A stretch of DNA of 38,812 nt from a virus (IMGVR_UViG_3300029922_000161:1-38812); one strand, 5' to 3'; counted from the stretch's first letter, positions 2,927 through 36,146 are shown. The notes: generated from the sequence alone by a model not told the origin. Made by a program: numbers and translations.

Positions 2927-3082
2927 ATGACAAATAATATACCAGAAGATGATAATAGTAAGAAAGCACAAGCTTCTCCTGTTTTTAAGCCAGATGAGAA
3001 TGCTGGATTCTATTTTTCATCTGGCATAAAGATTTTTGACCCTAATACAAAAGAAGTTTTGCTGCATAAACGAGGCGATTAA
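2927..3082 (+). CDS. 51-residue protein, probable remnant C-terminus of tail protein
   Basis: Short frame beginning MTNNIPEDDNSKK and ending GIKIFDPNTKEVLLHKRGD. The motif IKIFDPNT(K/M)EV recurs in the next gene, so both may share a small virion motif. The frame upstream of the ATG is open into the end of tnpB. The likely reading is that this was once the C-terminal part of the tail protein ending at 1616 and was cut off by tnpB. It could instead be a genuine small virion gene with its own start, though no clear ribosome site is seen. Confidence 0.5.
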   Translation: MTNNIPEDDNSKKAQASPVFKPDENAGFYFSSGIKIFDPNTKEVLLHKRGD

Positions 3083-3088
3083 TAAGTA

Positions 3089-3703: not shown

Positions 3704-3707
3704 CATA

Positions 3708-12420: not shown

Positions 12421-13248
12421 ATGTCTTCCGCCTGGGTACATAAATTGAATGAAAGTGATAGTCGTCTCCATAAAGAAGAAATTCTTAGACAGGCTCTGCT
12501 CGCAGCCCAGCTTGGTAATGAAATTTCTATTAACTTTCTTACACTGTTGCGTACCTGTTACGATCCTTTTGTGACATTCGGTGTCAAGCAAATTCCATCA
12601 ACATCTGGAATAACTAACGCCGAAAATCCAATAGATAGATATAAGCTTCTCTTACAACGCCTGCGCACACGATACCTTTCCGGAAACGATGCGAGAGATG
12701 CAATCAATGAAATCTCTCAACGATTTGATTCTGAAGAATGGAATAACTTTTATGCTCCGGTTCTCCGACGAGATATTCGTGCAGGAATTAGCGAAAAAAC
12801 TATCAACAAGGTATGCAAAGGAATTGACCAATATGAGGTCCCGGTATTTTCTTGTCAGCTAGCTACCAATTGTGAAAATCGTCCCGAGATGCAAGGGCAA
12901 AAAAGATTAGAGGCTAAACTCGACGGCTGTTTATCTGAAAGTTGGATTGTAGAATTTGAAGATGGGTCTAAAGTTACAATTAAAGAAGTAGTAGATAAGT
13001 CACTTAGTGGAAAAATTAAATCATTTAATACTATATCAGGTAAGATAGAGTTTAATGAAATATTAGGGTGGGCAAAAGATGGTGATGATATAGAAATTAA
13101 TAACTATGAGTGGTTTGAAATAGAATTAGAAAACGGAAAAATATTGCCTCCGTTAACAGGTAACCATCTAGTATATTTACCTAAACTAAAATGCTATCGT
13201 AGAGTTGATCTTCTAGTTGAAGGTGATCTCCTTTTAGAAGACGCCTAA
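12421..13248 (+). CDS. ATP-dependent DNA ligase (T4 gp30 type), N-half fused to split-intein N-part
   Basis: Residues 1-169 are the N-terminal part of a T4-type DNA ligase: the region VLRRDIRAGISEKTINKV matches the helical domain of T4 gp30, and EAKLDG holds the adenylated lysine (K166) of the KxDG motif. Immediately after KLDG the sequence turns into an intein N-part beginning with Cys170 (CLSESWIVEFEDGSKVTIKE), ending with LVYLPKLKCYRRVDLLVEGD at the stop, 106 residues in all. The ligase C-half is encoded at 14146 after an endonuclease gene. Trans-splicing would restore KLDG-CRM and a ligase of about 463 residues, close to T4 ligase. Without splicing the active site is incomplete. Confidence 0.9.
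   Translation: MSSAWVHKLNESDSRLHKEEILRQALLAAQLGNEISINFLTLLRTCYDPFVTFGVKQIPSTSGITNAENPIDRYKLLLQRLRTRYLSGNDARDAINEISQRFDSEEWNNFYAPVLRRDIRAGISEKTINKVCKGIDQYEVPVFSCQLATNCENRPEMQGQKRLEAKLDGCLSESWIVEFEDGSKVTIKEVVDKSLSGKIKSFNTISGKIEFNEILGWAKDGDDIEINNYEWFEIELENGKILPPLTGNHLVYLPKLKCYRRVDLLVEGDLLLEDA
12928..13245 (+). other. Split intein N-part in DNA ligase
   Basis: Begins with the splicing Cys directly after the ligase motif KLDG. Block A-like CLSESWIVEFEDGSKV; a block B-like segment LPPLTGNHLVYLP with T-G-N-H in the place of T-x-x-H; ends VEGDLLLEDA then stop. Length 106 residues, the classical split position used by gp41- and DnaE-type split inteins. Confidence 0.88.
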
Positions 13249-13269
13249 CCATCAAATTTATGCTAGTGG

Positions 13270-13277
13270 TATAAATA
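13270..13277 (+). promoter_or_regulatory. T4-type late promoter TATAAATA
   Basis: An exact match to the T4 late consensus, 18 bases before ATG 13296. The predicted leader carries AAAGGAG. It would drive the endonuclease and the overlapping ligase C-half. Confidence 0.6.
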
Positions 13278-13295
13278 CTGCAAAGGAGCAGTATA

Positions 13296-14165
13296 ATGCC
13301 TATATGTCATATATGTAAGAAAAAAGTGCCTAAGTTAGAATATCATCTTTTAGCAGAACAGTTTGCTAATACTATTTTGGAAATGTTATCATCAGGTTAT
13401 TCGGTTTTGTATTTGAATAAAAATTCTAAAACTTTATTTGGTATTGAATTATCATATACCCGTATACAAGTAGTTTTGAATCATAGAAATTTATCTTCTC
13501 CTACACTTAGGGATACGGCGAATAGTAAAGTTGTTAGAGACTTATATAAACAAACCGTTGAAGAAAAATATGGGAGTGGAATTACAAACGTTTCACAAGC
13601 ACTCGAAATAAAATGCAAAAAAGATAAAACAAACTTAGAGAGATATGGTGTAACCAACCCGTTTCAAAGACCGGAAATAATAAAAAAGTCAAAAGAAACA
13701 CTGTTTACTAATTACGGGGTATATCACAGTTGTGATATACCAAATAGGCCAGGTCGGAGTGGACGATACTCTGCCCCGCATAGAAAAATATCACAGTATT
13801 TAACAGATATAGGTGTTTCACACGTAAATGATTATCCGGGTATGTTTAGAAAATTTAATACAAATCTAGGGCGGTATTATTCACCTATTCCGGACATATT
13901 TATCCCTGAAATAAATTTAGTAATTGAAGTTTTTGGTGATAGATGGCATATGAATCCAAACATGTATTACGAAACTGATGTTGTTAAATTTTTTGCCGGA
14001 TTTTATACTGCTAAAGAAGTTTGGGAAGGTGAGCAAATACGCAATGAACATATAAAATCATTCGGTGTTGATTTATTAATAATATGGGAGTATGATATAA
14101 AACATAATTTAATCGAAACCAAAACTCGTTTGATGGAGAAAATTAGTGAGTTATCAAAAAATTAA
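13296..14165 (+). CDS. Vsr-like homing endonuclease between the ligase halves
   Basis: A 289-residue protein. The N-terminus has C-x2-C (CHICKKKVPKLEYH), a likely zinc finger. Residues ~90-150 hold three KYG modules (EEKYGSG, LERYGVTNPFQRPEI, FTNYGVYH). The C-terminal half is a Vsr-type nuclease: PIPDIFIPEINLVIEVFGDRW with D and E ligands, then WHMNPN. Endonucleases of this type are known in fractured genes where a split intein interrupts a phage enzyme; they spread the intein to intein-free alleles. It is very AT-rich (one 60-base line counts 15 G+C), unlike the ligase. A good ribosome site AAAGGAG lies upstream. Confidence 0.85.
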   Translation: MPICHICKKKVPKLEYHLLAEQFANTILEMLSSGYSVLYLNKNSKTLFGIELSYTRIQVVLNHRNLSSPTLRDTANSKVVRDLYKQTVEEKYGSGITNVSQALEIKCKKDKTNLERYGVTNPFQRPEIIKKSKETLFTNYGVYHSCDIPNRPGRSGRYSAPHRKISQYLTDIGVSHVNDYPGMFRKFNTNLGRYYSPIPDIFIPEINLVIEVFGDRWHMNPNMYYETDVVKFFAGFYTAKEVWEGEQIRNEHIKSFGVDLLIIWEYDIKHNLIETKTRLMEKISELSKN

Positions 14166-14262
14166 AGCAATAAAACGCATGATACCTGAAAATCAAACTA
14201 GATATGATATTCAAGTAAAAAATACTAGTAATTTTTTTGCAAATAATGTGTTAGTGCATAAT
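14146..14262 (+). other. Split intein C-part in DNA ligase
   Basis: 39 residues with block F-like RYDIQVKNTSNFFANN and block G VLVHN followed by Cys. Size and motif order match C-parts of gp41-type split inteins. Confidence 0.88.
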
Positions 14263-15147
14263 TGTAGGATGCTTTTATTTGTTTTTGTATCTACAGGCGA
14301 TCCTAATTTTATCGTGACTACAGCTACATCTTATAGTCGTAATGGTAAGGTCTTTGAAAATTTTAGCAACATAGAAGACCAAGTTAGACAAAAAGCTACA
14401 GCATTGCTGGCTTCGAGATTATCATTCAAGGGTCTTCCTAGCAATACATTAGCTCATGGGTTTGTTCTAGATGGGGAAGTCGTTAGTAATAGCTTTCAGA
14501 CATTAATGAAGCAGGCCCGCCGAAAAGAAAACGTGGATGCTGATGATAGCATATATCATGTGTTCGACATCATTCCAGTGAATGATTTCCGTAGAGGATA
14601 TTGGAATGCGTCACAGAGTACACGAAATGAATTGCTTGAATCAATGCGCCCTGTTTTTGAACAAATGCAAAATGTGAAATTACTTCCGCATCTGGATGTA
14701 AATCTCGATACGCTAGAAGGTAAAAACCAACTTGATCGCTATGCTGCTGATACAGTTGCAGCTGGGTTTGAAGGTATTCTGATAAAGAACGTAGATGCGC
14801 CGTATCTCTGTAAGCGAACAGTCAATTGGTTAAAATATAAACCGGTATTGACCGTTGATTTGACTGTTGTAGCACTTGAGGAGGGTTCTGGTAAGCATGC
14901 GGGTCGGCTCGGCGCTCTGGTGTGTGAGGGTATTGATGACGGTAAGTTCATACGAGTTAATGTTGGATCAGGACTGAGTGATACCCAGCGTGATGAAATA
15001 TGGGGAGATCAGAATAATATTATTGGACAGGTAGTTGAAGTGAAGGCAGATTGTATTACTAAAAATCAAAATTCAGAAACAGAGTATAGCCTGCGCTTTC
15101 CTAGGTTTGAACGTTTTCGTGGATTTGCTCCGGGTGAGAAAATTTAG
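14146..15147 (+). CDS. ATP-dependent DNA ligase, split-intein C-part fused to C-half
   Basis: Starts at GTG 14146 inside the end of the endonuclease gene, with GGAG seven bases upstream. Residues 1-39 are an intein C-part (YQKIKAIKRMIPENQTRYDI, ending FFANNVLVHN) with the usual His-Asn end. Residue 40 is Cys, the +1 extein nucleophile. Residues 40-333 are the ligase C-half: motif III SYSRNGK, motif IIIa FVLDGEVV, motif IV EGILIKN, motif V WLKYKP, then the OB-fold domain (VVALEEGSGKHAGRLGALV). All nucleotidyltransferase motifs missing from the N-half are here, so the two halves are complementary rather than redundant. Confidence 0.9.
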   Translation: MSYQKIKAIKRMIPENQTRYDIQVKNTSNFFANNVLVHNCRMLLFVFVSTGDPNFIVTTATSYSRNGKVFENFSNIEDQVRQKATALLASRLSFKGLPSNTLAHGFVLDGEVVSNSFQTLMKQARRKENVDADDSIYHVFDIIPVNDFRRGYWNASQSTRNELLESMRPVFEQMQNVKLLPHLDVNLDTLEGKNQLDRYAADTVAAGFEGILIKNVDAPYLCKRTVNWLKYKPVLTVDLTVVALEEGSGKHAGRLGALVCEGIDDGKFIRVNVGSGLSDTQRDEIWGDQNNIIGQVVEVKADCITKNQNSETEYSLRFPRFERFRGFAPGEKI

Positions 15148-17671: not shown

Positions 17672-18916
17672 ATGTCAGAAAATAAAATATCCTCATGTTC
17701 ATTCTGTGGATCATCAAAAGATGATGTATCCAAACTGATTTTCAGTGAGGGCGTAGCTATCTGTAGCGGGTGTATAGAATTATGTAATCAGTTAATAGCC
17801 GCTGAAACTTCACTACACCCAGCCCCCGATGTCGTTGAAACAGACAATAAACTAGATGCATATAGCATTAAAGAGTATTTAGACCAATATGTCATAGGGC
17901 AGGATAATGCAAAGGAAGTACTTTCAGTAGCAATATCAAATCATTATAAAAGGATTAATAATCCTTCAAAAGACATTCAGGTACATAAAGGCAATCTACT
18001 TATAATCGGCCCGTCAGCCTCAGGGAAAAGTTTGCTAGCGAAAACAGCCGCGAAATATCTTGATGTACCTTTCGTTATAGCTGATGCTACTAGTTTAACT
18101 GAAGCCGGCTATGTAGGAGAAGATGTCGAGTTTATGATATCAATGTTATTATCTTTAGCAGACAATGATGTATCCAAAGCCGAGCGAGGTATTGTATTTA
18201 TAGATGAAATTGATAAGATTTCTCGTAAGAGTGAAGGTGCAAGCATTACTAGAGATGTAAGCGGTGAGGGAGTACAGCAAGCTCTATTAAAACTTATTGA
18301 AGGTACTAAGTGTAGAATAAGTACTACCGGAAAGAGAAAACATCCGCAAGGTGATATGATAGAAATAGATACAAAGAATATTTTGTTTATCGCGGGCGGG
18401 GCCTTTGTCGGCTTGGACAATATTATCAAAAGTCGAACAAGTGGATCGTCGATTGGGTTTGGGCCATCTGTTCGTGCTAAAACTGATAAAGTAGAATTAA
18501 ATAATGTAATACCAGAAGATATGACCAAATTTGGAATGATCCCGGAGTTTATAGGAAGATTTTCCACAATAGTGACATTGAGTAATTTGACTACTGATCA
18601 ATTAGTAGAAGTTTTAACAAATGTTAAGAATAATTTTATCGATCAATACAAATATCTGTTTAGTTTAGACGGAATATCTTTGAGTTTTACTGATGCAGCT
18701 ATAAGAAAAATTTCTCAGAATTGTACAGATTTAAAGTCTGGCGCGCGTGGACTACAAACAGAAATTGAACGGGTATTAATGAAACCTATGTTCCATATGA
18801 AATTATTCAAAGAGCATGGTGTATTTCATATAACTATAGATGAAAAACATGTTAATGATCCTGCATTAATCATTCGGGAATATCTACCAATGGTAAAACT
18901 TATTGACCCAAAATAG
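17672..18916 (+). CDS. clpX: ClpX, AAA+ unfoldase of ClpXP
   Basis: A 414-residue full-length ClpX (E. coli has 424). The zinc-binding domain has four Cys (C9, C12, C31, C34). The AAA+ module shows VIGQDNAK, Walker A GPSASGKS (about 112-119), pore loop GYVGEDVE, Walker B IVFIDEIDKI, an RKH loop (KRKHPQGD), PEFIGRF and the sensor-2 motif LKSGARGL. The ClpP-docking loop IGF is present in GSSIGFGPSV, so pairing with ClpP is likely. Substrates enter through the pore and are delivered to ClpP. A phage copy could redirect the host protease or pair with the phage ClpP at 21152. ATG start without an obvious ribosome site, just after the preceding stop. Confidence 0.96.
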   Translation: MSENKISSCSFCGSSKDDVSKLIFSEGVAICSGCIELCNQLIAAETSLHPAPDVVETDNKLDAYSIKEYLDQYVIGQDNAKEVLSVAISNHYKRINNPSKDIQVHKGNLLIIGPSASGKSLLAKTAAKYLDVPFVIADATSLTEAGYVGEDVEFMISMLLSLADNDVSKAERGIVFIDEIDKISRKSEGASITRDVSGEGVQQALLKLIEGTKCRISTTGKRKHPQGDMIEIDTKNILFIAGGAFVGLDNIIKSRTSGSSIGFGPSVRAKTDKVELNNVIPEDMTKFGMIPEFIGRFSTIVTLSNLTTDQLVEVLTNVKNNFIDQYKYLFSLDGISLSFTDAAIRKISQNCTDLKSGARGLQTEIERVLMKPMFHMKLFKEHGVFHITIDEKHVNDPALIIREYLPMVKLIDPK

Positions 18917-18950
18917 TCGCACTTTATGAGAGAACCTATATAATAAGTAT

Positions 18951-18979
18951 TATTGCAGTTGCTTTTAAGGACTGCAATA
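18951..18979 (+). promoter_or_regulatory. 5' leader hairpin of hsp20
   Basis: TATTGCAGT (18951-18959) and ACTGCAATA (18971-18979) form a perfect nine-base-pair stem with an 11-base loop. Loop bases CTTTTAA (18962-18968) are complementary to TTAAAAG (18993-18999), which overlaps the hsp20 ribosome site AAAAGGAG. A TATAAT at 18939-18944 has no clear -35 partner. Confidence 0.5.
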
Positions 18980-19010
18980 AGTCATTCTTGCTTTAAAAGG
19001 AGAACAACAA

Positions 19011-19475
19011 ATGACACAACACCAACTAACCCTTCCACGTGGGGTAGATTTCCCACAAATTCATCGTTTTTCTGTAGGATTCGATAATCTATTCGATGAA
19101 CTGTTGCGAACTACCGTACAACAACAAGCTAACAACGCGAATTACCCTCCATACAATATAATCAAACACTCTGAGGATAAGTTCAGTATCGAACTTGCTG
19201 TGGCAGGTTTCACTGAAAAAGAGCTTGACGTGACCCTAGAAAAGAATATACTGTCTATTAGAGGTAGCAAGCCTGCACCTGATACTGAAGGACATGATTA
19301 CAAGGATTATTTGCATCACGGAATTTCTTCCAGAGATTTTGTCAGAACATTTACTTTGGCAGAATATGTTGAGATCATTGAAGCTAAGATTGCCAATGGT
19401 ATTTTGACAGTAGAACTAGAACGTCAAATTCCTGAGGCAGCAAAGCCTAAGACTATTCAAATTAGTTCTATATAG
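19011..19475 (+). CDS. hsp20: Small heat-shock protein (Hsp20/alpha-crystallin)
   Basis: A 154-residue holdase chaperone. The N-terminal arm has VGFDNLFDELLR; the alpha-crystallin domain follows: YPPYNIIKHSEDKFSIELAV, AGFTEKELDVTLEKNILSI, and the closing AKIANGILTVELERQIPE (A-x-x-x-N-G-I-L motif). The C-terminal IQISSI supplies an I-x-I-type oligomer motif. It binds unfolding proteins without ATP. Hsp20 genes are common in T4-like environmental phages. Strong ribosome site AAAAGGAG; the leader carries a hairpin with complementarity to that site. Confidence 0.93.
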   Translation: MTQHQLTLPRGVDFPQIHRFSVGFDNLFDELLRTTVQQQANNANYPPYNIIKHSEDKFSIELAVAGFTEKELDVTLEKNILSIRGSKPAPDTEGHDYKDYLHHGISSRDFVRTFTLAEYVEIIEAKIANGILTVELERQIPEAAKPKTIQISSI

Positions 19476-19498
19476 GCATACTTCGAAGTATGTCTATA
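19471..19498 (+). terminator. Hairpin after hsp20 (terminator-like, no T tract)
   Basis: A stem of 12 base pairs with one G-U pair around loop TCGA; the core CATACTTCGAAGTATG is a perfect palindrome. It overlaps the hsp20 stop. There is no run of T after it, so it may protect or process the mRNA, rather than terminate. Confidence 0.45.
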
Positions 19499-19531
19499 GC
19501 TCTAGTTGCTTGCGCGAACAAGTGAACGAGG

Positions 19532-19567
19532 GTGGTTGGGGACAGGTACGCCTCTCCCGCGAACCAC
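19532..19567 (+). ncRNA. Structured segment in the hsp20-clpS gap
   Basis: GTGGTT (19532-19537) pairs with AACCAC (19562-19567), followed inward by GGGG/TCCC and GG(TACG)CC. It is GC-rich for this genome and lies outside any ORF. It may be part of the transcript linking hsp20 and clpS, or a small RNA. Not a tRNA by inspection. Confidence 0.3.
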
Positions 19568-19583
19568 ATTTCTTAGAAATATC

Positions 19584-19591
19584 GATAAATA
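19584..19591 (+). promoter_or_regulatory. Late promoter motif GATAAATA before clpS
   Basis: A NATAAATA match giving a predicted leader of about 26 bases that includes the AAAAGGA ribosome site of clpS. Confidence 0.5.
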
Positions 19592-19622
19592 CACTTGAAT
19601 TCTAACAAAAGGATTAGCACAA

Positions 19623-19934
19623 ATGACTACAGCAGAACCGAATATTAAGCAAAAGATCAAGCCAAATATGTCCTTGAAGGAACCGCCACTTTATAAGATC
19701 ATCTATATTAACGATGAATTTACCAGTATGGAATTTGTTGTTTCTTCGCTTATTGAGTATTTCAACTATAATCCTGACACCGCTGGCGTGATTACGTGCG
19801 ATATTCATGAAAAGGGTAGCGCAGTTGTTGCAGTTTTGCCAGCCGAGCTAGCTGAACAAAAAGGAATCGAAGTTACTTTGGATGCTCGCGCTCAGGGATA
19901 TCCGCTTCAGATAAAAGTTGAATCAACTGATTAA
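19623..19934 (+). CDS. clpS: ClpS, N-degron adaptor for ClpAP
   Basis: A 103-residue ClpS (E. coli has 106). The N-terminal arm of ~20 residues is followed by the core PPLYKIIYINDEFTSMEFV. Residues expected in the N-degron pocket are present: N30, D31, M36 and H62 correspond to E. coli N34, D35, M40 and H66. E. coli D36 is replaced by E32. ClpS binds proteins with bulky N-terminal residues and hands them to ClpA, whose N-domain is encoded at 28062. The C-terminus overlaps the stop of the convergent pseudo-phosphoesterase gene by four bases. Confidence 0.93.
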   Translation: MTTAEPNIKQKIKPNMSLKEPPLYKIIYINDEFTSMEFVVSSLIEYFNYNPDTAGVITCDIHEKGSAVVAVLPAELAEQKGIEVTLDARAQGYPLQIKVESTD

Positions 19935-20641
19935 CTTTTTACGGCTATTCTAGCCGCATAATACGGAGTATTTCGTATATACGGATTGTGAATGAAAGTC
20001 GTATAGTTGCTAAGTGTATCGACATATTTCCCATACGATCCGAACACCCAGTGTTTAATTTTGTGTTCGGTATCTGAATGTATTGCAATTTGTAATACAG
20101 ATTGTGTATGAGTGATGTTAGGCTCTTCACCGAAATATAATGAAGGATCTGGAACAGCGTTGGACACAACAATTATGTTTCGTACATCTAAGTGCCTTTG
20201 TATCTTTTCAATTGCAGCATGTAGGTAGTTTATATCTTCGTGTCTAGCGGAGACCGGCATTAAATTATTAACAGTGAGATCATCATTGATTGTGTTGTTC
20301 CAACCATTTATACCGATGATGGCTACACCATCAATTATTACTATATTTTGATAAAGCATTCCTATTTTGGGTATATGACTAGTTATAGTGATTAGCTCAG
20401 ATGTCCTGTCAGATATCTTTGTTGCAGTTTCATATTCCAGAGTACCTGGAATAAAAAAGATACCCTGATAGAACCTACTCAAATGAATCAGAGTTTGCAT
20501 TAATATCTTTAAGTCAGAACTTATGTTTCCAGCAACAATACAATATAAGCTGGTAGCCTTTCCCTCCCAATTGAATTTTGACGATTCATTCGGAGTAAGG
20601 TTCAAATCACTAATAACATCAAATCCTATATCCTGTGACAT
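19931..20641 (-). CDS. Calcineurin-like phosphoesterase homologue with lost metal ligands
   Basis: A 236-residue protein whose layout follows metallophosphoesterases: DVISDLNL (normally D-x-H), VAGNIS (normally AGD), FFIPGTLEYE (normally PGNHEYY), IIVVSNAVPD (normally V-T/S-H-H), and KHWVFGSYGKY (normally GHTH). Thus the His, Asp and Asn metal ligands are replaced at every motif (for example H to N14, D to N39, NH to T67-L68). The fold is likely kept but hydrolysis is unlikely, so a binding or scaffold role is inferred. It is the second gene of a minus-strand pair with the membrane protein upstream. Confidence 0.6.
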   Translation of the reverse strand: MSQDIGFDVISDLNLTPNESSKFNWEGKATSLYCIVAGNISSDLKILMQTLIHLSRFYQGIFFIPGTLEYETATKISDRTSELITITSHIPKIGMLYQNIVIIDGVAIIGINGWNNTINDDLTVNNLMPVSARHEDINYLHAAIEKIQRHLDVRNIIVVSNAVPDPSLYFGEEPNITHTQSVLQIAIHSDTEHKIKHWVFGSYGKYVDTLSNYTTFIHNPYIRNTPYYAARIAVKS

Positions 20642-20645
20642 TTTC

Positions 20646-21020
20646 TTACAGGATATTCAGCTTGGGCTTCCGAGGCTTCCGCGAAGATTTAGTAGGAATT
20701 GGATCCTCTTGTGCAACCGGTAATTCTGATTCAATATCGGCTTCGGGTGTTGAATCAATGATCTTTAATACGTTGGGCTTTCTAGTCTTCTTAACTAGTT
20801 CTGTATTATCTTCTTTGCTTAGAATGGGACCAACGCCGGGAATCTTGAACCCCTCTACTTGTAACTGGGATTCTGGCGTCGAAAGCGTTTCGGTTTCTAC
20901 GGATACTAGAGTGTTCACTGAAGCATTATCACTTTCATCAACAGACGGTATTGATTTGATTACTAATAGTCCAGCCAGCAGCAAAATGATTATCAATAGT
21001 GCTCCTAATAATATAAACAT
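20646..21020 (-). CDS. Single-span membrane-anchored protein, Lys/Pro-rich tail
   Basis: Starts with a strongly hydrophobic segment (MFILLGALLIIILLLAGLLV), then an acidic/Ser-Thr linker and a basic Pro-rich end (KSSRKPRKPKLNIL). The ATG at 21020 is preferred because AAGGAG lies nine bases upstream; an in-frame ATG at 21044 would add eight residues but has no ribosome site. One N-terminal membrane segment with the rest in one compartment. Function unknown. It lies five bases upstream of the pseudo-phosphoesterase on the same strand. Confidence 0.55.
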   Translation of the reverse strand: MFILLGALLIIILLLAGLLVIKSIPSVDESDNASVNTLVSVETETLSTPESQLQVEGFKIPGVGPILSKEDNTELVKKTRKPNVLKIIDSTPEADIESELPVAQEDPIPTKSSRKPRKPKLNIL

Positions 21021-21118
21021 TAAAAATTTCTCCTTATTTCTCATGTATTTAGTGTGATATCTTGTCTATAAGAAAATATTACCCGAGTTGTTTGCTTTCT
21101 GATTCAATACCGTGCAGT

Positions 21119-21133
21119 ATGTATTACATACAT
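21119..21133. repeat. Small palindrome upstream of clpP
   Basis: ATGTAT-TAC-ATACAT, six-base arms, 19 bases before the clpP ATG in the gap between divergent genes. It could be an operator or leader hairpin. Weak evidence. Confidence 0.3.
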
Positions 21134-21151
21134 AATCAAAGAAGGAAAAAT

Positions 21152-21745
21152 ATGTCAAACTTAGTACCAATGGTAGTCGAACAAACCGTAAAAGGTGAAA
21201 GAGCATACGATATCTTCTCCAGGCTTTTGAAGGACAGAGTAGTTCTGTTAGAGGGGGAAGTTAATGAACATATGGCTAGTATTGCGGTTGCACAATTATT
21301 GTATCTAGAATCTGAAAGTTCTACGCAGGATATTTCAATATACGTTAATTCTCCAGGTGGGAGCGTAACAGCCGGTCTCGCAATCCTTGATACAATGGAT
21401 TTTATCAAACCGGATATCAGTACAATCGCAATTGGTCAAACAGCTAGTATGGGAAGTTTGTTGGCACAAGCAGGGACTAAGGGAAAACGATTTATACTCC
21501 CGAACACCCGTGTAATGATACATCAACCATCAGGCGGCGCAGGCGGCAAGCAAAGCGATATTGAAATTTCATACAAAGAAATTACTTACCTTAAGCGGCG
21601 CCTTACTCAGATATATGTTGATCATAATACCGCCGGCAAGACATTTGAAGAATTTGAAGCAGCAATGGATCGTGATTTCTTTATGTCTGCACAAGAGGCA
21701 GTAGATTTTGGCCTAGCAGATATGGTACTAAGCCGCAGGCCTTGA
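21152..21745 (+). CDS. clpP: ClpP protease, proteolytic core
   Basis: A 197-residue ClpP. The start at ATG 21152 is set by AAGGA and by the N-terminus [11 protein letters not shown], which corresponds to the mature E. coli enzyme; no propeptide is present. The catalytic triad is intact: S99 in GQTASMGS, H124 in MIHQPSGG, D175 in [11 protein letters not shown]. Other family marks are [15 protein letters not shown] and the handle region. It should form 14-mers. Both phage unfoldases carry IGF loops that dock in its hydrophobic clefts. Head-maturation ClpP-like proteases of phages lack this close match to cellular ClpP, so a role in regulated proteolysis is more likely. Confidence 0.96.
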
Positions 21746-26447: not shown

Positions 26448-27296
26448 ATGGATCATTATCATACCCTTGGCGTCACGCGAGATGCTACTAAAGATGACAT
26501 AAAAAAGAAATTCAGGGAATTGGCCAAGAAAGCCCATCCTGATTGCGGCGGAGATTTGGCTAAATTTCAAGAAATTACTCTAGCATATGAAGTACTTTCG
26601 GATGATGATAAGCGAACAGCATATGATAATCCGGCGCCACAATTTAGTTTTGGTAGTGGTGATCATGGTGTTGACTTAAGCGATATTTTCGCACAGGCAT
26701 TTGGACAGCAATTTGGCCAGCGGTTTGATTTTAGTATGAATGGTCGGCCAGCCCCCGGTCAAGGATTCAATAACAATTATCAGCAACAAACTGTTTATAG
26801 GACAACGGTGTCAATACCGCTGTCGGCCGCGTATTACGGTGCTGAACAAACATTTTCGATTAATATACCAGGTGGAAGTAGCAAGACGATTAAAGTGAAG
26901 GTTCCACTCTCTACCAAAACCGGCGATCAAATACGACTGAGTGGGTTACTAGGAGATAATTCGTTTCTTATCGTAGAATTCAACGTACAAAATGATTCGA
27001 AGTTTGAACGTCGTGGAACAGAATTTCATTCAGAATATCCTATATCAGTATTAGACTTGATCACTGGTAAGACAGTAAAATTCGTGACATTTTCTGGAAA
27101 TACGATAGAAATTGATATCCCAGCTGGTACACAACCGAATATCAATATACAAGTACCAGGTTATGGTATGCCAATGGGTAATGGAACATACGGAGATCAA
27201 TTTTTGAGATTGACACCGTTTGTTCCGAATAATATACATGAAGATATTATCGTCGCTATTAACCGAAGTTACACCAATGAAATCCAGAATTCCTGA
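26448..27296 (+). CDS. J-domain co-chaperone, class B (CbpA/DnaJ-like)
   Basis: A 282-residue protein. The J-domain (residues 1-60) starts YHTLGVTRDATKDD and has the HPD motif at 30-32 that stimulates Hsp70. There is no Cys-rich zinc domain, so it is class B like CbpA. A short G/F-rich linker (FSFGSGDHG, GQQFGQRFDF) precedes two C-terminal substrate-binding domains (TTVSIPLSAAYYGAEQTFSI, GGSSKTIKVKVP, then GNTIEIDIPAGTQPN). It should work with host DnaK, as no Hsp70 gene is in the window. The strong promoter leaves almost no leader. Its 3' end overlaps the next repeat-protein gene. Confidence 0.92.
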   Translation: MDHYHTLGVTRDATKDDIKKKFRELAKKAHPDCGGDLAKFQEITLAYEVLSDDDKRTAYDNPAPQFSFGSGDHGVDLSDIFAQAFGQQFGQRFDFSMNGRPAPGQGFNNNYQQQTVYRTTVSIPLSAAYYGAEQTFSINIPGGSSKTIKVKVPLSTKTGDQIRLSGLLGDNSFLIVEFNVQNDSKFERRGTEFHSEYPISVLDLITGKTVKFVTFSGNTIEIDIPAGTQPNINIQVPGYGMPMGNGTYGDQFLRLTPFVPNNIHEDIIVAINRSYTNEIQNS

Positions 27297-28061: not shown

Positions 28062-29609
28062 ATTAATCAGTCCCCGGAAATTGAAAACATCATTGAGCAC
28101 GCTATTGAGGCTGCTAAACAACGAAAACACCAGTATGTGGCAGTTGAACACCTACTATGGGCGTTGATTTCGCATCCACCATTCAAGAAGTGTGTTAGTC
28201 TGATGAATGTGGATGTTGATATGATGTTGGCGGAGATTGAAGCATATTTGGATGGACTTCATGCAATCGAGTCAACTGATCCGAATATTCAGCCTAAGCG
28301 CACCAACACACTAGAACGTGTTATAAATCGTTCAGTGACTCAGGTGTTGTTTACTGGTCGTAGGCAAGTTGCTACTCTCGATTTGTATATGAGTATTGCA
28401 ACCGAAACAAATTCACATGCATCATACTTTCTGCTTAAGTACGGAATCAATAAAGCAGAATTCCTCAATCACTGGCAGAAGCACTATGCTAGCGGCGACC
28501 ATTCAGCTATTTCTCCAAATCAAGCAGATGATATTCTTGCAGAATATACGATCAATCTTACTGAACTTGCTAGACAAGACAAGCTTGAACCGGTTATTGG
28601 GCGACATAAGGAAATCGAAGATATCATTCATGTCATGGCCCGACGTTTCAAGAGTTCCGTGCTCTTAGTGGGCGATCCTGGCACCGGCAAGTCGGCTATT
28701 TTAGACGGCATTGCAAACGCCATCGTTGCTGATGCGGTTCCGGATTTTCTGAAGGGCCATGAGCTTTATTCTCTAGAGATTGGGTCGCTGCTGGCCGGCT
28801 CTCGGTATCGTGGTGATTTTGAAGAAAAAGTTAAGAATGTTCTTGATGCATTGTCTGTAAAAAAGAATGCAATTCTTTTTATTGATGAAGCACACACCAT
28901 GCAGGGCGCTGGCGGCTCGACGTCCGGCTCTGTAGATTTCGCAAATATGATCAAGCCTGCACTTACAAAGGGTATACTTAAGGTTATTGCATCTACAACC
29001 TGGGAAGAATATTATCAATCCTTCGAAAAGGATAGGGCTCTTATGCGTCGGTTCTATCGTATTACGGTTAATGAACCTAGCCGCGATACCACTGTTCGTA
29101 TTTTGAGTGGCTTAGCTCCTAGACTAAATGATTACCACGAGGTCGAAATCACGAACGAGGCTATTGAAACTGCGGTTGATTCTGCTGAACGATATATCCA
29201 TGATCGAAAGAACCCGGACAAGTCAATTGATTTGATTGATGCCGCATGCGCAAAGCAGCGTGTCTTAGAAAACAAGAATGCAAAAATCACCAAAGAACAT
29301 ATTCATGAACAAGTTGAAAATTTTACTGGTGTTTCAGCAAATAAGATGAATGGTGATAATTATGATATCATTAGTAATCTTGAGTCCAATATTAAAAGCA
29401 AGCTGTACGGACAGGATGAAGCCGTTGATCAGGTTCTAGATCGCGTCTATGCATCTTTTGCGGGAATTAGTAACGAAAAGAAACCAGTTGCTAGCTTCTT
29501 GCTGCTAGGTCCTACAGGTAGTGGTAAATGTTTGGCTAGAGAACAACAGGTTACGATTCAAATGGATGATGATATGTATAATTTTGCTGTTATGAATAAC
29601 CTAATTTAG
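28062..29609 (+). CDS. clpA: ClpA unfoldase, N-half fused to a 26-residue split-intein N-part
   Basis: Extein residues 1-489: the ClpA N-domain that binds ClpS (SPEIENIIEHAIEAAKQRKH, YVAVEHLLWALI), ATPase ring D1 with Walker A GDPGTGKS (about 204-211), SLLAGSRYRGDFEEK and Walker B AILFIDEAHTM, then the start of ring D2 ending exactly in Walker A GPTGSGK. The intein follows at once: CLAREQQVTIQMDDDMYNFA and seven more residues to the stop. The frame has no ATG or GTG before 28137, yet homology begins about 25 codons earlier, after AAAGGAG. The start is therefore placed at ATT 28062 (ATT 28059 is possible). Spliced ClpA would have about 754 residues; E. coli ClpA has 758. Confidence 0.92.
   Translation: MNQSPEIENIIEHAIEAAKQRKHQYVAVEHLLWALISHPPFKKCVSLMNVDVDMMLAEIEAYLDGLHAIESTDPNIQPKRTNTLERVINRSVTQVLFTGRRQVATLDLYMSIATETNSHASYFLLKYGINKAEFLNHWQKHYASGDHSAISPNQADDILAEYTINLTELARQDKLEPVIGRHKEIEDIIHVMARRFKSSVLLVGDPGTGKSAILDGIANAIVADAVPDFLKGHELYSLEIGSLLAGSRYRGDFEEKVKNVLDALSVKKNAILFIDEAHTMQGAGGSTSGSVDFANMIKPALTKGILKVIASTTWEEYYQSFEKDRALMRRFYRITVNEPSRDTTVRILSGLAPRLNDYHEVEITNEAIETAVDSAERYIHDRKNPDKSIDLIDAACAKQRVLENKNAKITKEHIHEQVENFTGVSANKMNGDNYDIISNLESNIKSKLYGQDEAVDQVLDRVYASFAGISNEKKPVASFLLLGPTGSGKCLAREQQVTIQMDDDMYNFAVMNNLI
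29529..29606 (+). other. Atypically split intein N-part (26 aa) in ClpA
   Basis: Starts with the splicing Cys right after GPTGSGK: CLAREQQVTIQMDDDM, then YNFAVMNNLI and stop. Only the first intein strand pair is present; the TxxH-type block is on the C-part. The length is close to that of the AceL-TerL split intein (25 residues), a known atypical split. Confidence 0.85.
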
Positions 29610-30678
29610 AAATATGTTCAAGTATAGTAGGAATAGTAATAGAAACTTCAGAGGAGAATACCTCAAATAAGTTCCATCCATTATCTCTCGCTGTTTTATT
29701 CTTTAATTCAGTCTTTTTAGCAACATCAGCACTAGAATGGTTAGTTACTACCTGTCTCCATTGTTCTAGTTTTTCTTTTTCCCATCTAGGATTTGGATGC
29801 CATGCTTCACCATGATATTCTATTATAATATCCAGACTTGGAATAGTTAAATCATAAAAGAAAAATTGTTTTTGTTCATCACTATAGATACACCATTCTC
29901 TGTTATCAGGAACTCCTATGTAATATTTTAATGAGTGTTGATCTAATATATCTAATATTAAAGTGAAGGCTTTGATAGATTCTAATGATGCATTTCCTAC
30001 ACTGCTATGATCATTTTTCTTTTTGCGCATAGCCTTATATTTCTCTTGGCCTTCTTCAGGCCCATACCGTTCAATATATCTCCATAGACCTAAACTACGC
30101 TTTCTACATATTTCTGGATTATCATTCATTTTTCTAACCCATTTTTCATTACGTTCTTTAAACTTAATAGGACCTTCAGCTTCTCCGTATTTCTTGATAT
30201 ATCTAGAAACAGTATTGGTTGCTTGTATGTTAGCAACTTTAGTCGTTGCTTCCTCTTTAGTAAAACCTTTGTTTATCCAATATCCAATATTTCTTACACT
30301 AAAACTTTTATTGCCTCTAGATTTAGCCGCAGATTTTTCTGCCCTTGCTCTTTGAGTTTCCGAAGAATGATCAAAACTGGCGGTTTTCTTTTTATTCGTT
30401 TTTATATATCTAGCAGTTCCATCTTCTTCACCGTATCTGATTATTAAATAAGGTAAAGTGCCATTATGAAGTTCTTTTAGTTTTTTCCACATTATTCCCC
30501 AATCTTCATACGAAAACTTAATACAAGAAATAATAAAAGCAATGCGGTCTGGGGTATATCCTATATTTTTATGAAATTCTTCTAATTTTTTGACCTCACA
30601 ATCTGAAAGTTTTCTATCATCAAATTCTCTTTTATATACAATTGAATTAGTTAATCTATTCGCTAATGGTTTACCCAT
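29590..30678 (-). CDS. Vsr-like homing endonuclease, antisense between the clpA halves
   Basis: A 362-residue protein on the strand opposite to clpA; its last 20 bases overlap the end of the clpA N-half. The middle holds modules of another type from the other endonucleases: IIRYGEEDGTARYIK, YIKKYGEAEGPIKFKERN, YIERYGPEEGQEKYKAM. The C-terminal ~120 residues are a Vsr-type nuclease: EWCIYSDEQ, FFFYDLTIPSLDIIIEYHGE and AWHPNPRWE, with the D, E and H expected in the active site. Its start has GGAG upstream on its own strand. Spread of the intein allele is its inferred job. Strongly AT-rich. Confidence 0.82.
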   Translation of the reverse strand: MGKPLANRLTNSIVYKREFDDRKLSDCEVKKLEEFHKNIGYTPDRIAFIISCIKFSYEDWGIMWKKLKELHNGTLPYLIIRYGEEDGTARYIKTNKKKTASFDHSSETQRARAEKSAAKSRGNKSFSVRNIGYWINKGFTKEEATTKVANIQATNTVSRYIKKYGEAEGPIKFKERNEKWVRKMNDNPEICRKRSLGLWRYIERYGPEEGQEKYKAMRKKKNDHSSVGNASLESIKAFTLILDILDQHSLKYYIGVPDNREWCIYSDEQKQFFFYDLTIPSLDIIIEYHGEAWHPNPRWEKEKLEQWRQVVTNHSSADVAKKTELKNKTARDNGWNLFEVFSSEVSITIPTILEHISKLGYS

Positions 30679-30717
30679 ATCCTGTGTCTCCTATATAATC
30701 TATTTAGTAATAGACAC

Positions 30718-30746
30718 TTGATTTTTAAAATTTAGTAAGTTATAAT
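30718..30746 (+). promoter_or_regulatory. Sigma70-type promoter of clpA C-half
   Basis: TTGATT (30718-30723), 17-base spacer, TATAAT (30741-30746). The ATG at 30745 lies inside the -10 box and so cannot be the start of translation from this promoter. Confidence 0.6.
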
Positions 30747-30749
30747 GTC

Positions 30750-30757
30750 TATAAATA
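30750..30757 (+). promoter_or_regulatory. T4-type late promoter TATAAATA of clpA C-half
   Basis: An exact match to the T4 late consensus. A start at about 30763 gives a 12-base leader with AAAGGA before ATG 30775. Confidence 0.6.
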
Positions 30758-30774
30758 TTTGCAAAGGATCACAA

Positions 30775-31185
30775 ATGATTGAAGTAACTCTGCCTGTCTC
30801 TAGTCTTTTTTCAATTTTAGAAAAATATGAAAAGATAACGTTTATTCCGGAACAAGAACAATTTCTGAATTCTGTTTTAAGAATTAAGAATGAAAATGGA
30901 GTCTGGGTAGATATCAATGCTGCGATTACCAAGAAAACCTCAGGAAGAAAAGTATTTTTTGATTCCGGAGATATTTTACATGCGGCTAATAAGCATTTAG
31001 TTTTTGATGGAAAAACATGTGTATTTCTAGATTCTTTGTCGGTCGGTGATATTATTACTAAATTTTCCGGAACGGTAATTACAGTAACAGATATTCAACC
31101 GTCTGATGAGGAAATTTTTTATGATCTGAGTGTAGATAGTGATTCTCATTTATATCAAACAGCAAACGGTATCATTAATCATAAT
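30775..31185 (+). other. Split intein C-part (137 aa) in ClpA
   Basis: Contains a block B-like segment (SGDILHAANKHLVFDG, with A-N-K-H in place of T-x-x-H), a block F-like segment (IFYDLSVDSDSHLYQT) and the ending NGIINHN with penultimate His and terminal Asn, followed by extein Thr. There is no endonuclease domain inside; that function is encoded by the antisense gene. Confidence 0.85.
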
Positions 31186-31983
31186 ACTGAAACCGCAAAG
31201 TTGCTTGCTGAAAATCTGGATTGCAAGTTACTCAAGTACGATATGAGCGAATTTAGTGAAAAGCATTCGGTTAGTAGTTTGATTGGTCCTCCGCCTGGAT
31301 ATGTAGGATTTAGCGATTCTCAGGTTCAGGGTGGGCGCCTGATTTCTGATCTTAGCAAGCATCCGCATGCGGTATTATTGTTTGATGAAGTCGAAAAGGC
31401 CCACCCGGATATTTTCAATATCTTTTTGCAGATGTTGGATGAAGGTCGTTTGACCGGCTCTAATGGTAAGGAAGTCTCTTTAAAGAATTGCATCATTATT
31501 TTGACTTCTAATCTCGGGTCAGCAGATAATGAAAGAAACAATATCGGCTTTGGTTCGCAAGAACGCACCGGAGAAGATGATAAGGCCCTTAAAGAATTCT
31601 TTAAGCCAGAGTTTCGTAATCGTCTTGATCTGGTTTGCAAGTTTAATAAATTGGACCAATTATCATTGAAGAAGATTGTAGTTAAGTTTCTTGAAGATAT
31701 TAAGAAACCACTTATGGATAAGCACAACATCACGTTGAATCTTTCTGAGGCAGCAATCGAATATCTTGCTGATAAGGGATATGACCCGAAGATGGGCGCA
31801 CGTCCGCTATCTAGAAAGATTGACGAATTGGTCCGTGTTCCGCTAGCAAAGAAAATCTTGTTTGAGAAAATTTCTAATTCAAACGTTATGGCGGTGATGG
31901 AAGGTGATCAAATCGTTTTCCAAGCGACCCCTAAGCTAGTTGCAGTAATTGGTGAAGGAGGAATCATTGAAGTTCAAGAGTGA
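30775..31983 (+). CDS. clpA: ClpA unfoldase, split-intein C-part fused to C-half
   Basis: Start at ATG 30775, with AAAGGA seven bases upstream. Residues 1-137 are the intein C-part; residue 138 is Thr, the +1 extein residue. The extein (138-402) continues ring D2 from TETAKLLAENLDCKLLKYDM: SEFSEKHSVSSLIG, pore loop GPPPGYVGF, Walker B VLLFDEVEKAHPD, ILTSNLG, the ClpP-docking loop IGF (in NNIGFGSQ), FKPEFRNRLD and the sensor-2 region MGARPLSRKID. Together with 28062-29528 it rebuilds a complete ClpA with GPTGSGK-TETAK. It has its own promoters, so the two halves are made from separate messages. The stop overlaps the next gene. Confidence 0.92.
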   Translation: MIEVTLPVSSLFSILEKYEKITFIPEQEQFLNSVLRIKNENGVWVDINAAITKKTSGRKVFFDSGDILHAANKHLVFDGKTCVFLDSLSVGDIITKFSGTVITVTDIQPSDEEIFYDLSVDSDSHLYQTANGIINHNTETAKLLAENLDCKLLKYDMSEFSEKHSVSSLIGPPPGYVGFSDSQVQGGRLISDLSKHPHAVLLFDEVEKAHPDIFNIFLQMLDEGRLTGSNGKEVSLKNCIIILTSNLGSADNERNNIGFGSQERTGEDDKALKEFFKPEFRNRLDLVCKFNKLDQLSLKKIVVKFLEDIKKPLMDKHNITLNLSEAAIEYLADKGYDPKMGARPLSRKIDELVRVPLAKKILFEKISNSNVMAVMEGDQIVFQATPKLVAVIGEGGIIEVQE

Positions 31984-32890: not shown

Positions 32891-33243
32891 TCAAAGAATT
32901 ATCAGAACAAGATCGTAACTGGTATATCCTCAAGGGGTACGAGATAGCTGAGTTCGATGATTATCGTGGATGGTTTTTAAACGGTAAACGTCATAGAGAA
33001 GATGGCCCCGCGGCTGAATATGCAGACGGGCATCGGGAATGGTGGTTAAACGGCAAACGGCATAGAGAAGATGGCCCCGCGGCTGAATATGCAGACGGAG
33101 GACGGGAATGGTATCTAAACGGCAAACGGCATAGAGAAGATGGCCCCGCGGCTGAATATGCAGACGGAGATCGGTATTGGTTTCTAAACGGAATAGAAAT
33201 ATCCGAAGAAGAATATCAGGAAGCTTCCCACAAGAACTTGTAA
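32887..33243 (+). CDS. HREDGPA-repeat protein (3 near-identical repeats)
   Basis: A 118-residue member. Cap KELSEQDRNWYILKGYEI, then three units whose DNA repeats every 69 bases from 32992, 33061 and 33130 with very few differences (each HREDGPAAEYADG). C-terminal cap EISEEEYQEASHK. The near-identity at DNA level shows recent expansion of the array. Its last 28 bases overlap the convergent endonuclease gene. Confidence 0.7.
   Translation: MIKELSEQDRNWYILKGYEIAEFDDYRGWFLNGKRHREDGPAAEYADGHREWWLNGKRHREDGPAAEYADGGREWYLNGKRHREDGPAAEYADGDRYWFLNGIEISEEEYQEASHKNL
32992..33198 (+). repeat. Tandem 69-base coding repeat, three copies
   Basis: Units starting CATAGAGAAGATGGCC at 32992, 33061 and 33130. 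Each encodes one 23-residue HREDGPA unit. They are in frame and coding, so the array is a protein-repeat expansion. Confidence 0.8.
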
Positions 33244-34721
33244 TTTCCGCAGTCATATATTCTATGCCCACCAATCTCCTTCATTATTTGAGACTCAGTT
33301 TTATTAGGATTGTTCCCTTGTTTAACCAAAGCAGCTTTGGTAAAATTGCTGCGATGGTATCGAATATCATTCTTGATGTACCAGTAACCCGCATTCCGTA
33401 TGTTTTCGGTAATATCAGTGAAACCTAATTGACGATAGAGACCACCATCACTCCAGCATCGATTTGCATAGCTCACAATAGATTTAGGATTGTATGTTTT
33501 CACAAAATATTTGAATAATTTGCTGGCACCCCCAACTATTGTTCCATTTGAACAAAACCTAATCATTTCATATTCTGTTTTATCATATCTAGCTTTTCCA
33601 AAACTCATGACTGCAACTAAGTCATTATTATGGTATAATCCTAGTTTTACAGATGCGCCGGCATATCCTTGCAAATGATGTTTTTCAGTGAATTCTTTGT
33701 ATGCCTGGCCAGGAACAGTTCGAACTTCACATTTTCTAGCGTATATTCTAGGACTCAACCCCAAAATATTTGTTATTCTTGATTTCACAATATCAGGTTT
33801 GCTGTCCCATTCATCAGAGAACACCTGAATTAGTTTGATGCCTATTTCTTTACTAGCCAGATATTTGTTCACATGATAATCCGCATCTCGATATTCTTCG
33901 GAATGCCAATAAACCCCATTGTATTCTAATGCTATTTGTTTGCTTGGAATAAAAATATCGTATTCTAATTTACCAATGATGCCGGTTACGTTGTTAATGG
34001 TCTCTATTCCTAGTGAATTTACAAATTCTCGTAATTGTATTTCTCCTTCTGAGATTTTTTTAGGATAACAAACATAACAGCGCGGGATATGTCCGTAATC
34101 AACATGATCGGTAAATATGGTTTGGCATGTATTACATTCCCATGGATATTTGTTTTTTGCTCTGCTACCAAAATAATCATCTCTCGCGAATTTAGGTGAA
34201 ACTTTTTCAGAAACTCTATCAATCACTTGATGAAATCCAACAGTTTCTTTATTTTTCCTAGTACGGTGTCTTGTCACTGAATTATCTTTGGCTGCAACAG
34301 TAGCTTTTGCTTTTGCCTTAACTATTTCGCTTTGTGAGGCATTTTCTACTCCATATTTTTCCAACCAGGTTTTCTTGCGTTTTTCAATTACGTCTGACAT
34401 ATCTCTTGGTTGATATGTTTCCACCCAGTGTTCTCTAAGACACTGACAATGCTTCATATTATTACAAAAACCATAATCTGATGTTTTGGGTCGAAATGTT
34501 CTTTTTTTGTTATTTTCACAAAAAACATTTGGCTTGCCTGTAATTAGATACCACACTTTTTCGGTTATAGTCACATCGCCCAATTCGGTTGTATTCTGAT
34601 CCAACCACTCTCGTAACTCTTTGTTCTTTCGGCTACATATTACTTGCCCCAGGGCCCTGGATGACGTAGAATCTATAATTGTTTGTAATTGGGACATCCA
34701 ATGGTCATAAATAACATGCAT
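33216..34721 (-). CDS. Free-standing Vsr-like homing endonuclease
   Basis: A 501-residue paralogue of the protein at 3708-5417. The frame is open further upstream, but ATG 34721 directly follows a late promoter motif and avoids the region of the VWA gene. N-terminal Cys-rich part (FCNNMKHCQCLREHW), a module LEKYGVENASQSEIVKAK, a zinc ribbon (CNTCQTIF and CYVCYPKK), then the nuclease signature LEYDIFIPSKQIALEYNGVY with WHSEEYRD, and the C-terminal domain (YARKCEVRTVPGQAYKEF, YANRCWSDGGLYRQLGF, YDCGNYKF). Free-standing, lying between a repeat-protein gene and the VWA gene. Confidence 0.82.
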   Translation of the reverse strand: MHVIYDHWMSQLQTIIDSTSSRALGQVICSRKNKELREWLDQNTTELGDVTITEKVWYLITGKPNVFCENNKKRTFRPKTSDYGFCNNMKHCQCLREHWVETYQPRDMSDVIEKRKKTWLEKYGVENASQSEIVKAKAKATVAAKDNSVTRHRTRKNKETVGFHQVIDRVSEKVSPKFARDDYFGSRAKNKYPWECNTCQTIFTDHVDYGHIPRCYVCYPKKISEGEIQLREFVNSLGIETINNVTGIIGKLEYDIFIPSKQIALEYNGVYWHSEEYRDADYHVNKYLASKEIGIKLIQVFSDEWDSKPDIVKSRITNILGLSPRIYARKCEVRTVPGQAYKEFTEKHHLQGYAGASVKLGLYHNNDLVAVMSFGKARYDKTEYEMIRFCSNGTIVGGASKLFKYFVKTYNPKSIVSYANRCWSDGGLYRQLGFTDITENIRNAGYWYIKNDIRYHRSNFTKAALVKQGNNPNKTESQIMKEIGGHRIYDCGNYKFLWEAS

Positions 34722-34726
34722 AAAAG

Positions 34727-34734
34727 TATTTATC
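34727..34734 (-). promoter_or_regulatory. Late promoter motif GATAAATA (minus strand)
   Basis: Read on the minus strand, GATAAATA is followed by five bases (CTTTT) and then ATG 34721. A T4-type start site would fall on the A of the ATG; there is no Shine-Dalgarno sequence. Confidence 0.5.
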
Positions 34735-34749
34735 CCGTTCGTTTGCGGC

Positions 34750-34778
34750 TTGACAAATTCATTGTCATTTGTTAGAGT
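34750..34778 (+). promoter_or_regulatory. Sigma70-type promoter of the VWA gene
   Basis: TTGACA (34750-34755), 17-base spacer, TAGAGT (34773-34778). The -10 box is weak. The leader contains AAGAGGATTAGAGA before ATG 34812. Confidence 0.5.
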
Positions 34779-34811
34779 ATCACTATCAAATACTATTAAG
34801 AGGATTAGAGA

Positions 34812-36146
34812 ATGAGCACCAAGAATACGACTATTGTTCCTACTGCTACCCAACATAAGGGCAAGACCCGCACACGGAGCAAGAAGTTTGAAAATCTTGT
34901 GGGTCCGACAGACCCTAAGGTCGACAATGAAGCCCGAGAAAAGCTGATTACAGCGCGAGTTGGTTTGTACTTGAAGCATTCTTTCTTCGGCAATCTCGCA
35001 ACTCGCATGCGTATGATCAATGCGGATGAATGGTGCACTACTGCTGCGACTGACGGGAATGTTCTGTATTACAATTCTCGGTTTATCATGATGCTTAAGA
35101 CGAAAGAGGTTGAGTTTCTGCTCGCACATGAAATCGGACATTGCATCTATGATCATATGGATCGCCGAGATCGCAGGCATCCTGAGCTGTGGAACATTGC
35201 AGGTGACTATGCAATTAACGCTGATTTGAAGCGACATAAGGTCGGCGAATTCATTACAACTGTTCCGTGTTTGTATGAAGCCAAATATGATGGTATGGCT
35301 TCCGAAGCCATCTATGATGATCTAATGAAGAATGTTCAGAAAATCAACATTGATGATTTGCTGGACAAGATGATTGACGATCACCTTGATTCCAGTGAAG
35401 AAGGAGAAGGTTCAGTGTCTGGCGATCAAGGTGATGGTGATGGTGATGATAAGAAGGGCAAGGGTCGTCCTAAGTTGTCACAGGAAGAACGTGATCGAAT
35501 TCGTCAGGAAATGAAGCAGGCTATGATCCAGGCGGCGTTAAGTCAAGAGGCTGGTACTCTGCCGGCTGGCATTGAACGCATGATCAAGCAAATGACTGCT
35601 CCGGTTATGCCATGGCGAGAACTTATTCAAACCAATCTCACTTCTGCTATACGTTCAAACTATAGCTGGATGCGGCCTTCTCGGCGCGGTTGGCATATGG
35701 ATGCGGTTTTGCCCGGCTTGCTTCCTGGCGAAGAGATTGACGTTGTTGTGTTTATCGACTTGTCGGGCTCTATTTCAATGAAGCAGGGACAAGATTTTCT
35801 ATCAGAAGTCGCTGGCATGATGGAAGCATTTGATGGATTTAAGATCAGGGTAGCATGCTTTGATACTGAGGTCTATAATATGCAAGAATTCTCGTCTGAA
35901 AATCTTGATACCATCGATGGATACAAGATGCAGGGCGGCGGCGGGACCGACTTTATGTGCATGTTTGAGTACCTCAAGGAAGAAGGCATTGTTCCAAATC
36001 GGATGATCGTGTTTACAGATGGTATGCCCTGTGGAAACTGGTGCCCTGATGAAGACGATTTTGAGATCACCTGGATAATTCATGGATCAAAAAGCATTAC
36101 TCCCCCGCGCGGACAATGGGCATACTATGATGATCATCAAAAGTGA
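34812..36146 (+). CDS. Metallopeptidase-like / VWA protein (DUF2201 type)
   Basis: A 444-residue protein. N-terminal domain with the zinc-protease motif FLLAHEIGHCIYDH (H-E-x-x-H, about residue 106) and the region NIAGDYAINADLKRH. A Gly/Asp-rich charged linker (about 200-225) follows. The C-terminal domain is VWA-like with a MIDAS site: VVVFIDLSGSIS, GGGGTDF and VFTDGMP. This pairing is the DUF2201 family, which in bacteria usually sits beside a MoxR-type AAA ATPase; none is adjacent here. Its GC content is clearly higher than that of the flanking endonucleases (31 of 60 in one line). Substrate unknown. Confidence 0.85.
   Translation: MSTKNTTIVPTATQHKGKTRTRSKKFENLVGPTDPKVDNEAREKLITARVGLYLKHSFFGNLATRMRMINADEWCTTAATDGNVLYYNSRFIMMLKTKEVEFLLAHEIGHCIYDHMDRRDRRHPELWNIAGDYAINADLKRHKVGEFITTVPCLYEAKYDGMASEAIYDDLMKNVQKINIDDLLDKMIDDHLDSSEEGEGSVSGDQGDGDGDDKKGKGRPKLSQEERDRIRQEMKQAMIQAALSQEAGTLPAGIERMIKQMTAPVMPWRELIQTNLTSAIRSNYSWMRPSRRGWHMDAVLPGLLPGEEIDVVVFIDLSGSISMKQGQDFLSEVAGMMEAFDGFKIRVACFDTEVYNMQEFSSENLDTIDGYKMQGGGGTDFMCMFEYLKEEGIVPNRMIVFTDGMPCGNWCPDEDDFEITWIIHGSKSITPPRGQWAYYDDHQK

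Follow-up and report, generated by a model that had tools for sequence, protein, structure and literature searches.

A phage clpA gene broken at its D2 Walker A motif by an atypically split, probably mobile intein with an antisense Vsr-like endonuclease gene

The 38,812-nucleotide viral contig IMGVR_UViG_3300029922_000161:1-38812 (this whole stretch is referred to as the window) carries a clpA gene in two plus-strand pieces (28062–31983), with the break located exactly at the Walker A motif, that is, the ATP-binding loop (P-loop), of the D2 module. The reading frame of the N-half, open from position 28041, encodes the ClpA N-domain, the D1 ATPase and D2 as far as GPTGSGK (the N-extein, 28062–29528, delineated by TIGR02639, PHROG 4871 and alignment of start codons), followed by a 26-residue stretch with an initial cysteine, CLAREQQVTIQMDDDMYNFAVMNNLI, and a stop codon at 29607–29609 (IntN, 29529–29609). 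The C-half (ATG at 30775; a second in-frame ATG at 30745) opens with a 137-residue segment, MIEVTLPVSS...HLYQTANGIINHN (IntC, 30775–31185), which ends with NGIINHN and is immediately followed by TETAKLL, the beginning of the C-extein that comprises the remainder of D2 and the D2-small domain (31186–31983, the end of the gene). Between the halves, a gene for a 362-amino-acid protein is located on the minus strand (29590–30678) and overlaps the IntN codons by 20 bp; a divergent spacer (30679–30774) separates its start from that of the C-half. The GPTGSGK boundary with the Cys-initial stretch and stop, the IntC end joined to TETAKLL, and the antisense gene with its 20-base overlap had all been described in an earlier reading of the DNA (hereinafter the sequence-only reading) and are exactly as described there. 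All three open reading frames (ORFs) are intact across approximately 3.9 kb.

The interrupted protein is ClpA by architecture, with an N-domain, two AAA modules, no ClpB middle domain, and a ClpP-binding tripeptide, namely an IGF in NNIGFGSQ of the C-extein that, read by eye, resembles the ClpP-binding loop. TIGR02639 (ClpA) is the top NCBIfam model for both halves, which match positions 25–501 and 490–729, respectively, and jointly cover 25–729 of its 734 positions; PHROG 4871 is matched at 31–510 by the N-half and at 510–753 by the C-half (of 764), and the C-extein also matches Pfam AAA_2 and ClpB_D2-small. The start codon is probably the ATT at 28062 (28059 is also possible). Among the relatives examined, the codon aligned to this position is mostly TTG, preceded by a similar AAGGA-type ribosome-binding site. 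Counted from 28062, exteins of 489 and 265 residues add up to a joined product of 754, in agreement with the size of about 754 given by the sequence-only reading.

A search of PDB with a profile built from IntN and IntC of five ClpA lineages and one contiguous relative (six sequences) retrieves VidaL (6vgv) as the first match, with an E-value of 4.8e-4, followed by the DnaE intein and the CatC consensus intein, and the match of IntC to TIGR01443 (19.7 bits) is above the cut-off of 15.6. The AlphaFold2 model of IntC alone (pLDDT 79, seven sequences in the alignment) predicts a HINT/intein fold: when it is compared with solved structures, the 50 best VIA entries are all intein or Hedgehog/Hint-type, with a top Z of 13.1. 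The contiguous relative interrupts the clamp loader of an uncultured phage of 484 kb (LR756508, locus L088); this intein aligns over IntN, including its N-terminus, as well as IntC and is inserted at GTGK/T (here and below, the slash marks the insertion point). The intein identity proposed in the sequence-only reading, including the expected resemblance of both parts to intein profiles, is thus borne out. A group I or group II intron, or a programmed frameshift, would be in line with the frequent location of phage endonuclease genes in introns; however, no Rfam family is matched in the window, coding continues up to both splice residues, the insertion is on an exact codon boundary, and, together with the intein profile and fold matches, this leaves such explanations with a practically negligible probability. 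In bacterial genomes, IntC yields a single short match, on a 3.3-kb contig, and its matches among deposited phages are limited to remote inteins, those of TerL and of the L088 clamp loader.

IntN is 26 residues long in all five ClpA lineages (the window, L006, L092, L095 and L096), inside the 15–37 range of atypically split inteins. Cys1 is the first intein residue in all lineages, and the terminal His-Asn with Thr+1 (HN/T) is invariant across the five, in which the histidine of block N3 (H74) and the Asp and His of the C block (D117, H125) are kept as well; these catalytic residues are retained also in L096 and L095, where only an antisense remnant of the endonuclease is found. The element is very probably a class 1, atypically split intein. 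Conceivably, the two halves could act unligated, as a two-chain ClpA in which the intein remnants are inert tails, and nrdA of phage Aeh1 provides a precedent for a split gene that is functional without a self-splicing element (PMC3653736). This explanation has little probability, given that all intein catalytic residues are kept across lineages that are only 42–60% identical, even without the endonuclease, and that the break is inside Walker A (GK/T), a position at which a P-loop made of two chains is difficult to envisage. Because the break falls at the ATP-binding loop, the halves very probably need to be joined after translation.

The flanks of the insertion abut with zero bases between them, at the same codon boundary, in 77 viral loci with uninterrupted clpA (GPTGTGKTE[LM]AKLL), which is direct evidence of precise insertion. 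Scans with IntC added further ClpA loci that are broken at this D2 codon, including the four additional lineages, 42–60% identical, whose 26-aa IntNs have an identical end residue; together with the 77 exact empty sites, these show that the arrangement is not due to chance. The phage lineages that carry the insertion are several and unrelated. In L005/L006, the 26-aa IntN is accompanied by an intact antisense endonuclease gene, and in L092, such a gene, also intact, overlaps the 26-aa IntN by 23 bp. The endonuclease of L096 is reduced to approximately 30 last codons, which are antisense and overlap IntN, and in L095, the halves are only 30 bp apart, with a faint antisense endonuclease remnant: 24 bases past the IntN stop resemble the tail of the L092 endonuclease at 16 of 24 positions (a resemblance as good is found in about 1 in 10,000 of the L095 24-mers). 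Thus, the endonuclease has been lost with the intein retained in L096 and L095. A 267-aa antisense ORF unlike the Vsr-like endonuclease is located between the ClpA halves of L197 (3780–4583, minus strand) and overlaps IntN by 65 bp; by eye, it was considered as a GIY-YIG candidate, which was dropped in view of the lack of Pfam, PHROG or PDB support. In locus L202 (IMGVR_UViG_3300033146_007470, 839–6284), clpA is broken twice, into three pieces, by a split intein in each Walker A motif (D1, GEPGCGK/T; D2, GKTGVGK/T). Each of these inteins has an antisense endonuclease, the first of which is frameshifted, and the two IntCs are 42% identical to each other. L026 and L027, initially taken for partial inteins, are in fact uninterrupted genes.

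The gene between the halves is predicted to encode a Vsr-like endonuclease, as the sequence-only reading had suggested. The endonuclease sequence gave no significant match in a search against PDB, and a fold search was needed. The AlphaFold2 model (pLDDT 78) is similar to E. coli Vsr (1vsr, Foldseek probability 1.00 and E-value 0.017; 1cw0, Z 8.0) and to I-Bth0305I (3r3p, Z 7.5); the Foldseek E-values are weak, and Vsr and I-Bth0305I are among the top rows. The fold matches agree with a conserved D...EYHG...H pattern, in which D276, E287 and H294 are invariant, and H289 almost so, in 15 relatives. D276, H289 and H294 (in the order D...YHG...H) presumably mirror the active-site Asp and His of Vsr. 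The protein matches PHROG 22677, and its antisense homologs in L006 and L092 are 45% identical to it. In at least 10 other loci with related endonucleases (genes for topoisomerase II, NrdA, UvsX, helicase, clamp loader and PhoH), the endonuclease and IntC genes are on the same strand; ClpA is the only host gene with an antisense endonuclease in the split-intein loci examined.

In the ClpA tree, the window is nested inside an intein-free clade. L095 is also nested among ClpAs that have no intein: of the 80 best relatives of its C-half, all except its own contig (79) have the exact empty site. The ClpA relatives of L092 are likewise uninterrupted. A single intein-bearing clade, with the five rows held together, is rejected with a p-AU of 4.6e-44, a figure that long branches make unsafe, although the placement of the window and of L095 within intein-free groups is not affected by this. 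As the intein-bearing ClpAs do not form one clade, the element has moved horizontally. The identity of IntC between lineages is 55–64% for exteins of 42% and of 60% identity alike, as expected for a transferred element.

In class 1 inteins, the halves associate, Cys1 forms a thioester, Thr+1 accepts, the terminal Asn cyclizes, and the exteins are ligated. The observations at the ClpA loci are best explained by a class 1 intein, atypically split and mobile, that interrupts the phage ClpA, is removed by trans-splicing and is accompanied by its homing endonuclease, which we consider very probable. The 26-residue IntN and the 137-residue IntC, produced from two genes, would assemble as one HINT domain, in which Cys1 and Thr+1 would be the nucleophiles and the terminal Asn would cyclize, so that the exteins would be ligated as GSGK-TETAK and the D2 Walker A motif restored. 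Prior to splicing, D2 would be without a complete P-loop and should bind ATP abnormally, because the insertion separates the Walker A Lys from Thr. The endonuclease, the 3' end of whose gene is within the IntN codons, is expected to cleave, at the P-loop codons, clpA alleles that lack the intein; repair would copy the entire IntN-endonuclease-IntC cassette into the cut allele.

Several points weigh against this interpretation. All six profile sequences match Pfam Intein_splicing, with the window's own sequence scoring under the cut-off (17.0 vs 35.8), which indicates that the intein is divergent; the Thr-x-x-His of block B (N3) reads ANKH, with Thr replaced by Ala and the His (H74) invariant; the ATT start would give weak initiation; and the sequences were assembled from metagenomes. 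The ATT in place of the TTG of most relatives examined would also suit a decaying insertion that has inactivated clpA, leaving the fragments as pseudogenes, with the function supplied by the host ClpA, which the phage could use. Such decay is highly improbable, given that none of the three ORFs is disrupted along about 3.9 kb, that the N-half matches ClpA along its length, that the length of IntN and the catalytic residues are kept in five lineages, and that the C-half is 100% identical in L004, the DNA of which is 97.7% identical to the window over 2.7 kb. Also present in the window, in the vicinity of the broken clpA, are phage genes for ClpX, an Hsp20-like protein (identified by eye), ClpS, ClpP and DnaJ (17672–21745 and 26448–27296); since homologs of these proteostasis proteins are encoded by the phage, its ClpA is likely used. 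If trans-splicing occurs as proposed, the activity of this ATPase, the expected partner of the phage ClpP and ClpS, would depend on it.

The convergent endonuclease gene may limit co-transcription of the ClpA halves. The spacer of the window contains a sigma-70-like site directed at the C-half (30718–30746, TTGATT-17-TATAAT; p of about 0.06 by shuffling), and the spacer of L092 contains a perfect one (p<0.001); no sigma-70-like site was found in the divergent spacer of L006. With a strong site in L092 alone, a borderline one in the window and none in L006, a promoter was rejected as a general feature of the spacer. Similarly, the T4-type late promoter TATAAATA was considered for the spacer and discarded, being not enriched in the window (6 found vs 5.7 expected). 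The promoter-like site of the window could serve the C-half. A more elaborate scheme posits that, in the ClpA-intein group, the endonuclease is stably inverted with its 3' end overlapping IntN, that a promoter in the cassette drives the C-half, that the halves are transcribed separately, that their ligation links Clp activity to the mobile element, and that the ClpA of L202 needs two trans-splicing events, at both P-loops; taken as a whole, this appears rather unlikely.

Fractured genes that combine split inteins with a homing endonuclease encoded as a free-standing gene were described by Dassa et al. 2009 (NAR 37:2560), as cited in PMC13014065 and PMC7891396. The locus in the window shares with them a gene cut by a split intein, an endonuclease gene between the halves, and phage hosts, but differs in the host protein, ClpA, and in the endonuclease that is antisense and overlaps IntN. 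The Aeromonas phage Aes123 split PolB1 intein (JN377899) also has a Vsr-type endonuclease gene between the halves of a split phage gene; in that case, however, the gene is for a DNA polymerase, the intein is cysteine-less, and the endonuclease is in sense. Atypically split inteins have an IntN of about 15–37 aa; AceL-TerL (25-aa IntN) and GOS-TerL are split after the first helix, and VidaL (16 aa) after strand 2 (PMC13014065). The ClpA intein resembles these three in its short IntN (26 aa), long IntC (137 aa) and dependence on cysteine, with VidaL as the best profile match; it is only distantly similar to them in sequence (19% over 122 residues to VidaL in the structure alignment) and differs from all three in its P-loop site in ClpA and the inverted endonuclease. 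The L088 intein shares the Walker A site and aligns over IntN and IntC but is one unbroken chain without an internal endonuclease. The endonuclease in the window shares its catalytic domain fold with the EDxHD homing endonucleases (I-Bth0305I), from which it differs in its very low identity, an N-terminal part that is long, helical and assigned to no named domain, and the antisense orientation.

A limited search of the open-access literature retrieved no paper naming a ClpA intein and, as far as such a search shows, ClpA as a host, the conserved inverted layout and the three-piece ClpA are new. The priority of the antisense layout is not certain. Antisense endonuclease genes are already known in group I introns (PMC9548176). 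With this case, a proteolytic AAA+ unfoldase would join the proteins assembled by phage trans-splicing, and the natural 26/137 split inteins from five lineages could be used in protein engineering. The loci also make up an unusually complete homing series at one site (empty, full, endonuclease remnant, another ORF in its place, and double insertion), to the whole of which the strand-inverted layout is common.

The window contains a second fractured gene (12421–15147), for an ATP-dependent DNA ligase that is split at the active-site motif KLDG/C; the intein here is split in the conventional way, into a long IntN and a short IntC, and an endonuclease gene lies in sense between the halves (13296–14165). 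In L114, L206 and L207, the gene split at Walker A is that of the clamp loader; the IntCs are related, and the endonucleases are in sense. The IntN as read is short in L114 (29 aa) and in L206. In L004, a helicase-like gene (3021–4361), positioned beyond the divergence from the window (33218), opens with a long IntC-type stretch ending SHN/SGKS, and no IntN partner was found for it. A small repeat protein (LPELSEQDRNWYILKGYEI ... WYLNGKRHREDGPA) is present in at least eight dispersed copies (9784, 11497, 23279, 27220, 27791, 32887, 37939 and 38315), some of which adjoin the L004 divergence point; the copies are possibly recombination hot spots. Finally, the phage genome encodes TnpB, an RNA-guided nuclease (1680–2915, NF040570), and two further large endonuclease-like proteins (3708–5417 and 33216–35237; PHROG 3339, with a Mom-like C-terminal stretch).
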